From: Opitutus sp.
GTDB lineage: Bacteria; Verrucomicrobiota; Verrucomicrobiia; Opitutales; Opitutaceae
Assembly: GCA_024998815.1 (NCBI GenBank)
Contig: JACEUQ010000001.1
Coordinates: 930,001 to 994,000, forward strand
DNA length: 64,000 nt
Direction: 5' to 3'
A program made the translations under genes and the position numbers. The notes under the pieces are model-generated. The model worked only from the letters and a program-made list of their open reading frames with translations, was not told where the DNA came from and did not search any database. Of the stretch, positions 22,538 to 24,554 are shown piece after piece. The stretch's first letter is position 1, and each line of letters starts with the position of its first letter.

Positions 22538-23629
22538 ATGCTACCGCCCCCTACCCCGCCCGATCCCATCGGCCATGCCCTGCTAGCCGAGCGCCTCGCC
22601 GCCCTGCCCCACGTGCTGGCCGCCATGATCAGGCGCGGCCCCGCGCCGTTGCGCCCGGCCACCCGCGCCTCCCGGCGCTTCATCATCACCGGCACCGGCA
22701 GCTCGGAAGCGCATGCGCGTTACCTGACGATGCTGCTTAACCTCCACACCGACCGCGCCGCCGCTTACCTACCGCTTTCGGGTTTCACCCTGGCCGAGCC
22801 GGCCTGCTTCGCGGGCGCAACCCTGGTGGTATTTTCCCAGGGCGTTTCACCCAACGCCCAAATCGCGCTGCGACGCCGGGGGGATTTCGCCCATTGCGTA
22901 CTGTTCACCGCCACCACGCCCTCCGCCGCACGCGCGGCCGGAAAACCCGACCGCGCCGCACTGCTCCAGTCCATCCTAGATGCAGGCGGCGAAATCATCG
23001 AATTCCCCCTGGCCGAGGAATACACCACCTTGATCCGCTTTGTCGGCCCCATGGCCGGCTACCTGGCCGCCCTCCAATTCGCCGCAACCCTCGACGGCAG
23101 CCGCCTGCAACTGCCCACTCTGGGCGAAATTCTTCCCCTGCTGGAGGAACGCCCGCCGACGGAGCTGCTGACGGCGATGAAGCGCTTGCCCAGCGCGTTC
23201 TCGGCCGGCTTTAACTTGGTCACCGCCGCGCCCATCTCTGATTACGCCCAAAACCTGGCCTGCAAGTTTATGGAAGGCGTGTACTGGCCGTGCCCGCCGA
23301 TCAGCGATTTTTTGCAATTTGCCCACGGCCCCTTTCAGGAAATGAACGCGCACCCCAAGCCGGTGGTCATCCTGCAAGGCGGCGCGGCGGTTGAGTCCGA
23401 GATGGTCGAACGCAGCGTGCGCATGCTGCGCGAAGTGGGGCTGCACGCGTTTGTGATCCGCGTGGAGGGCGCGGCGTTGCACTCCATTTTCGGTTTTGAA
23501 GCGGCGCTCAATGCCCTGGTTTTCGAGGTGATGGTCCACCTGCGCGTGGACCAAATCAACTGGCCCGGCAAAGGCCGCGACGACCTGCTCTACGGCTTCT
23601 GCCCCGATCTGGCGCAGCCTAACCCCTGA
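22538..23629 (+). CDS. SIS-domain phosphosugar-binding protein
   Basis: A 363-residue protein with two sugar-isomerase (SIS) domains, as in the isomerase half of GlmS or AgaS-type proteins. The first has RRFIITGTGSSEAHARYLTM and LVVFSQGVSPNAQIAL; the second has CKFMEGVYWPCPPISDFLQF and QEMNAHPKPVVILQGG. No glutaminase domain precedes it. It probably binds or isomerises a phosphorylated amino sugar; the substrate is unknown. It stands alone on the plus strand. The start is ATG at 22538, where the frame becomes coding-like. Confidence 0.85.
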   Translation: MLPPPTPPDPIGHALLAERLAALPHVLAAMIRRGPAPLRPATRASRRFIITGTGSSEAHARYLTMLLNLHTDRAAAYLPLSGFTLAEPACFAGATLVVFSQGVSPNAQIALRRRGDFAHCVLFTATTPSAARAAGKPDRAALLQSILDAGGEIIEFPLAEEYTTLIRFVGPMAGYLAALQFAATLDGSRLQLPTLGEILPLLEERPPTELLTAMKRLPSAFSAGFNLVTAAPISDYAQNLACKFMEGVYWPCPPISDFLQFAHGPFQEMNAHPKPVVILQGGAAVESEMVERSVRMLREVGLHAFVIRVEGAALHSIFGFEAALNALVFEVMVHLRVDQINWPGKGRDDLLYGFCPDLAQPNP

Positions 23630-23762
23630 GCCGCCCCAAGGACAAAACCCGGCGTTACCTTCGCCACTTGCCTCACTTGGAGAAACCCACGAACCTCCGC
23701 ATCCACTTGTTTTAACTAGGAGTTACCCGTTAACAAACTGCCCGTCTCCCCCTTTTTTGCAT

Positions 23763-24464
23763 ATGAGTTCTCACTCCGCCAACGACTCCGCCCAGACCCA
23801 CGATGCCCAGCTGCTGGCACGCGTCGCCCAAGGCGAACAAACCGCCCTCGGCGAACTCTACGACCGCTGGAGCCTGCCACTGCAAGCCCTCGCCGCCCCA
23901 GTGCTTAAAGACCCCGCCCAACTCGAAGACGTCCTGCATAACACGTTCATCACCCTCTGGGAAAAAGCAGGCGACTTCGATCCTACCCAAGGGTCGGCCT
24001 ACGACTGGGCGGCCACCTGGGTTCGCGCCAACTCGGTTCCTGCAAACGCGGGGCCCGATGCCGCCACCGCAGCTCGCCCGCAACTCACCCCATCCCTCGA
24101 TCTCGCGCCGCCCTCAGCAGCCCTTCGCGCCCGCATCCTCAACTCTGCGGTGCCGCTCCCTGCCGAGGTTCGTCACCTGCTCCCCTTCCCCACTCCGCCC
24201 GCGTGGCTTGGCTGGGGCTTCGCCGCCGTGTTCAGTTTGGCCGCCATTTTCTTTGCCGCCAAAAGCTTCAACGTCCGCAACGAGCTGCAAGCCGCGCTTG
24301 AGTCAGAGCGCATGGCCCGCCTCGAGGCGGGCACGCTGAAAAACCTGCTCGAGGCCGAACGCATCCTTTCACGCGCCCAACTGGAGCGCCTGCTCGCCGC
24401 CGACCGGCTTAACGCCGAGTTGCGCGCACAGGTCAATCGGGGCGCACAACCCGCGCCGCGCTAG
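23763..24464 (+). CDS. Hybrid of ECF sigma-factor region 2 and RskA-type anti-sigma membrane part
   Basis: A 233-residue protein from the ATG at 23763. Residues about 15-90 match sigma-70 region 2 of SigK-type ECF factors (DAQLLARVAQGEQTALGELY, then ALAAPVLKDPAQLEDVLHNT, then FDPTQGSAYDWAATWVRAN). Sigma region 4 is missing. The chain passes straight into a Pro/Ala linker with LAPPSAALRARILNSAVP, one transmembrane helix (LGWGFAAVFSLAAIFFAAK) and a helical tail, as in the second half of RskA-type anti-sigma factors. SigK and RskA genes are normally adjacent, so an in-frame deletion that fused them is the simplest explanation. It is unlikely to work as a normal sigma factor. Confidence 0.75.
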   Translation: MSSHSANDSAQTHDAQLLARVAQGEQTALGELYDRWSLPLQALAAPVLKDPAQLEDVLHNTFITLWEKAGDFDPTQGSAYDWAATWVRANSVPANAGPDAATAARPQLTPSLDLAPPSAALRARILNSAVPLPAEVRHLLPFPTPPAWLGWGFAAVFSLAAIFFAAKSFNVRNELQAALESERMARLEAGTLKNLLEAERILSRAQLERLLAADRLNAELRAQVNRGAQPAPR

Positions 24465-24497: not shown

Positions 24498-24554
24498 GTA
24501 GCGCAGACTTCCAGTCTGCTCCGAGCACGAATGCAGACTGGAAGTCTGCGCTAC
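24498..24554. repeat. Extragenic palindrome (GTAGCGCAGACTTCC family, copy 2)
   Basis: GTAGCGCAGACTTCCAGTCT at 24498 and its exact complement ending at 24554 form a 22-bp perfect stem with a 13-nt loop. It lies between the convergent sigma hybrid and RluD-type genes and could also act as a bidirectional terminator. Relative of 11241-11295. Confidence 0.85.

Follow-up and report, generated by a model that had tools for sequence, protein, structure and literature searches.

A reduced sigma/anti-sigma fusion of the SigK-RskA kind under purifying selection in Opitutus

Introduction

The window analysed here, a stretch of 64,000 nucleotides from a contig of Opitutus sp., carries a gene in which a SigK-like sigma region 2 (sigma2) and parts of an RskA-like membrane anti-sigma factor are joined on one chain. 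This fusion is a real, selected, lineage-specific and unusual variant of the SigK-RskA kind. It is conserved in three species of the genus, evolves under purifying selection and occurs in species that lack SigK and RskA_C. The reading that is tentatively favoured, at somewhat less than an even chance, is that the product is a self-capped membrane protein outside transcription rather than a sponge for RNA polymerase; anti-sigma helix 4 would dock onto sigma2, core binding would be lost and the biological role would reside in the membrane part.

Anatomy of the fusion gene

The gene and its parts are as follows.

23763..24464, plus strand: fusion gene, 233 aa, ATG at 23763; a single open frame for sigma2, linker, putative anti-sigma helix 4, membrane span and long helix
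23802..24026, plus strand: sigma region 2 (2.1 to 2.3), residues 14-88, without region 2.4 (PF04542, alignment, fold)
24027..24110, plus strand: variable linker, residues 89-116, with the deletion junction inside and nearly all indels (alignment)
24111..24155, plus strand: putative helix 4 of the RskA anti-sigma domain, residues 117-131 (identity to intact RskA; weak alignment to 4nqw_B; PMC7406223)
24201..24263, plus strand: membrane span, residues 147-167 (hydropathy maximum at 147-165; homology to RskA)
24264..24443, plus strand: long helix after the span, residues 168-227 (one modelled helix 148-227; conserved)

A first-pass annotation had described one frame joining a SigK-like region 2 to the second half of an RskA-like protein, and this description holds: Sigma70_r2 (PF04542) matches residues 32-89 with E 9.3e-9, exceeding the Pfam gathering score, the fold matches SigK, and the second half is 65-71% identical to the rskA genes of congeners. 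SigK-like families match the fusion in NCBIfam, with SigK as the best, and SigK 4nqw_A (E 1.3e-7) and CnrH are its sole relatives in a PDB sequence search; the same type of search with one RskA gave chance hits only. Region 4, also said to be absent, has no Pfam match (PF08281/PF04545) in the three fusions and is present in the SigK of congeners. In the alignment the sigma likeness ends just ahead of region 2.4 (NRAIDRLRSR), so region 2 of the fusion is itself incomplete. Region 2.4 is responsible for -10 recognition in sigma70, and with its loss -10 recognition by the fusion should be gone.

The second half was only partly as first described. Hydropathy and homology to RskA give a single membrane span, and the helix that follows would be periplasmic if the topology matches that of RskA; both elements are present, but the periplasmic domain RskA_C (PF10099) is missing as well (no Pfam match in the fusions). 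The anti-sigma N-terminal domain had been reported as absent, which is correct for helices 1-3, missing from the fusions in alignment with intact RskA, but probably not for helix 4. RskA likeness restarts after the missing helices at PSAALRARILNSAVP (residues 117-131), identical at 15/15 positions to RskA of the congener G011 and at 14-15/15 to the four nearest intact RskA proteins. This segment aligns to PPAHLRTAILDAT, the final segment of the crystallised RskA domain (4nqw_B), with E 0.2, a weak match that is nonetheless collinear with the rest of the domain, and on this alignment it is provisionally assigned to helix 4.

AlphaFold2 models built on a 41-row alignment (mean pLDDT 90; pTM only 0.57-0.67) predict with high confidence four sigma2 helices at residues 2-22, 26-44, 51-71 and 79-91. 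They also show a short helix at 119-128 with a pLDDT of about 90 between linkers at 46-65, and a single long helix at 148-227 which includes the membrane span. The top PDB match in Foldseek is SigK 4nqw_A (rmsd 1.1 A across 78 columns), with modest E-values because sigma2 makes up only one third of the chain. Heptad counting and Fourier periodicity revealed no coiled-coil signal above shuffles in the long helix, which is why the feature is named for its length; a coiled-coil scaffold gains no support from it.

Distribution, origin and genomic context

Related sequence is present in all 13 genomes analysed from the genus. A search of the relatives for the same fusion and for separate sigK and rskA genes found the fusion in this genome and in two congeners, G012 (83% identity) and G007 (60%). 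Eight other congeners encode separate sigK and rskA genes that abut with a 4-base overlap, at a locus other than that of the fusion, and in the remaining two (G003 and G008) the gene has only the membrane span, the long helix and RskA_C.

L040:9152-9802 and L041:985-1617, minus strand: genes of the tail-only type (G003, G008) that have lost the sigma and anti-sigma domains; span and long helix are conserved and RskA_C drifts

Across 252 family genomes, no fusion of both halves was found beyond these three genes at E 1e-14, a threshold at which fusions with strongly diverged tails could escape. A match at 39-223 in G004 was considered as another fusion and rejected, being the rskA frame of that genome. 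An IleS tree unites the three fusion species with a support of 100/100 and joins them to the tail-only species and G001 at 88/97. The fusion looks like the product of one event, given this single clade and its occurrence in only three of the family genomes. RskA_C has no copy above cut-off in the three fusion genomes and one in each of the ten other congeners; SigK and RskA_C are absent in exactly the three fusion species, and no intact SigK or RskA was found elsewhere in this genome.

A fabV-like gene follows sigK-rskA in several of the intact species, whose counterpart of the gene preceding the fusion sits elsewhere. In the three fusion species the fusion is located downstream of one conserved gene.

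22538..23629, plus strand: gene of 363 aa that precedes the fusion and is conserved across the three fusion species; SIS/GlmS-like by eye, no Pfam match at E 0.1

Since the fabV region of this genome holds no remnant of sigK or rskA and the fusion lies at a different locus, relocation accompanied the reduction. The origin proposed at first, an in-frame deletion across adjacent genes, is supported by the abutting genes of the eight congeners but is insufficient by itself, as the gene has also been shortened at its C-terminal end and has moved to another locus. The SigK-RskA gene pair of an Opitutaceae ancestor would thus have become one gene by in-frame loss of sigma4 and anti-sigma helices 1-3, the RskA periplasmic domain would also have been truncated, and the reduced gene would now occupy a new locus.

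The motif TGCATCC-N16-CGTT, a candidate SigK-type promoter seen by eye upstream of intact sigK, was not in register upstream of the fusions, where no sigma70-type promoter was found either. A block, CTTCGnnACTTGCCTC, at 23659-23674 upstream of the fusion is common to the three fusion species while the surrounding spacer has diverged, and is a possible regulatory element. Just downstream of the fusion lies an inverted repeat, GTAGCGCAGACTTCCAGTCTGC (24498-24519 and 24533-24554), a member of a large palindromic repeat family. With one mismatch allowed, its forward and reverse matches number 134 and 143 in this genome, 40 and 52 in G007, 14 and 14 in G012, 8 and 8 in G001 and 0-1 in the other nine congeners. 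Six of the 22-base copies lie on one strand of this genome at G000:C1:658608-663872 with a spacing of about 1.0-1.1 kb, pointing to a tandem array whose units measure roughly 1 kb.

Selection on the fusion and its relatives

The whole gene has a dN/dS of 0.19-0.25 (NG86 with codon bootstraps). By part, the values are 0.13-0.19 for sigma2, 0-0.08 for helix 4, the most constrained segment, flanked by the fast-changing linker and a less conserved spacer, and 0.08-0.24 for membrane span and long helix; those of the linker lie between 0.07 and 0.82 and have broad intervals, a consequence of nearly saturated synonymous sites. A decaying pseudogene or an assembly deletion would accommodate the restriction to one lineage, the loss of two domains and the fast linker. 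Such an account is highly improbable in view of a dN/dS well below 1, a probability of about 0.006 that neutral drift would leave a stop-free frame at the distance of G007, and the recurrence of the fusion in three separate assemblies. The two possibilities raised earlier were each rejected: an assembly artefact by the same fusion in two congeners, and a dead remnant with a kept frame by the purifying selection.

The fusion sigma2 is 63% identical between this genome and G007 at an IleS identity of 94%, whereas that of intact genes is 72-84% identical at IleS 88-90%. The constraints on it have therefore shifted, as it changes faster than intact SigK for the divergence of the species. Its own purifying selection implies, however, that sigma2 must do something beyond being tolerated.

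In the tail-only genes dN/dS is 0.24 for span and helix vs 0.59 for RskA_C, and RskA_C identity is 39% between these genes vs 90% between intact ones. It could be argued that only span and long helix matter in the fusion as well, sigma2 and helix 4 being a folded, harmless N-terminal cap devoid of its own function; G003 and G008, where span and helix stay constrained and RskA_C drifts although sigma2 and helix 4 are gone, would fit this. As both of these elements are under purifying selection in the fusion, this explanation is considered rather unlikely.

Polymerase binding and the role of helix 4

In class-I anti-sigma domains, coevolution and crystal data indicate that helix 4 binds sigma2 regions 2.1/2.2, the clamp-binding face, and that helix 1 touches sigma4 (PMC7406223). 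On this basis the fusion would have lost the sigma4 half of a dual interface and kept the sigma2 half. The alignment shows neither sigma2 nor helix 4 in the tail-only genes, and this joint absence is expected if helix 4 is kept for its contact with sigma2.

In Escherichia coli, residues 403, 406, 407 and 409 of region 2.2 touch beta-prime, and replacement of the acid weakens core binding but need not abolish it (PMC8321222). By the numbering of an ungapped alignment made in this analysis, the 407-equivalent acid is D/E in 23/23 related sigma factors and N, N and H in the fusions, and the 423-equivalent position is R or K in 19/23 related sigma factors and Q in all three fusions. A membrane-tethered decoy that binds core RNA polymerase, perhaps only after displacement or cleavage of helix 4, could build on regions 2.1-2.2, which retain the fold and most structural residues, the D403 equivalent included. 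The acid is lost in all three species, however, a conserved helix 4 predicted to cover the core-binding face is present in cis, and sigma2 outpaces intact SigK in its evolution, and so a decoy is judged unlikely. The sequestration of core polymerase suggested by the first-pass annotation is weakened by the same observations; the replaced acid and the cis helix 4 argue against a simple polymerase sponge, and weak or regulated core binding would still be compatible with the sequences.

The fusion might instead act in trans, its sigma2 head or its helix 4 targeting a different sigma factor or an anti-sigma factor, for instance by titrating the latter; eight other sigma region 2 matches in this genome would be candidate systems. 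Against it, the three fusion genomes encode no other RskA_C protein above cut-off and the contacts of helix 4 are described as partner-specific (PMC7406223), making this similarly unlikely.

In the favoured model, one chain would keep the mutual binding elements sigma2 and helix 4, followed by membrane span and long helix. Helix 4 would fold back onto the sigma2 of its own chain or, by a swap, of another one and cover the polymerase-binding face, so that the capped protein would neither initiate transcription nor titrate polymerase, and the retained job would lie with span and long helix in a structural or scaffolding role. A capped head is suggested by the strong constraint on helix 4 and its near identity to intact RskA, its loss together with sigma2 in G003 and G008, the known binding of class-I helix 4, the confidently predicted short helix between low-confidence linkers, and the altered region 2.2 acid together with the lost region 2.4. 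A role of span and long helix is favoured by the constraint on both elements in the fusion as well as in the tail-only genes, against the loss or drift of RskA_C. Against a capped and idle head stand the low pTM, an acid loss that may merely weaken binding and the purifying selection on sigma2. A quite unlikely extension of this scheme is a membrane switch of a new kind: sigma2 and helix 4 would form a permanent pair, within one chain or across two, in which a signal transmitted by the long periplasmic helix would dislodge helix 4 and make sigma2 accessible to a new, non-promoter partner.

Relation to known systems and significance

The direct ancestor by homology is SigK-RskA (PDB 4NQW), an ECF sigma and a class-I anti-sigma factor, with which the fusion shares sigma2, the putative helix 4, the span and the periplasmic helix. 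SigK-RskA comprises two genes, whereas the fusion is one gene without sigma4, anti-sigma helices 1-3, region 2.4 and RskA_C. Fused ECF/anti-sigma proteins (IutY/ECF243, ECF36, ECF48, ECF52 and ECF53; PMC8999054) likewise carry a sigma and a membrane-bound anti-sigma factor on one chain, but have whole sigma domains and are described as functional sigma factors that proteolysis sets free, while the present fusion lacks sigma4. RsoA of the SigO-RsoA system, a sigma2-only co-sigma factor of Bacillus subtilis, is also sigma2-like without sigma4 but acts with a separate sigma4 protein (PMC8103513); the fusion has lost region 2.4, is membrane-anchored and appears to bring its own helix 4. RskA truncations, made artificially or recurring in nature, lose extracytoplasmic sequence and keep the membrane part as the fusion does, but there SigK is separate and complete and the cytoplasmic anti-sigma part is retained (PMC7509140). 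No description was found in the open-access literature of a sigma/anti-sigma pair cut down to a lone sigma2/helix-4 contact and selected after loss of promoter recognition.

The fusion offers a natural test of whether half of a dual sigma/anti-sigma interface suffices by itself. Considered alongside the tail-only genes, it points to a function of the membrane span and long helix of RskA that goes beyond the retention of SigK.
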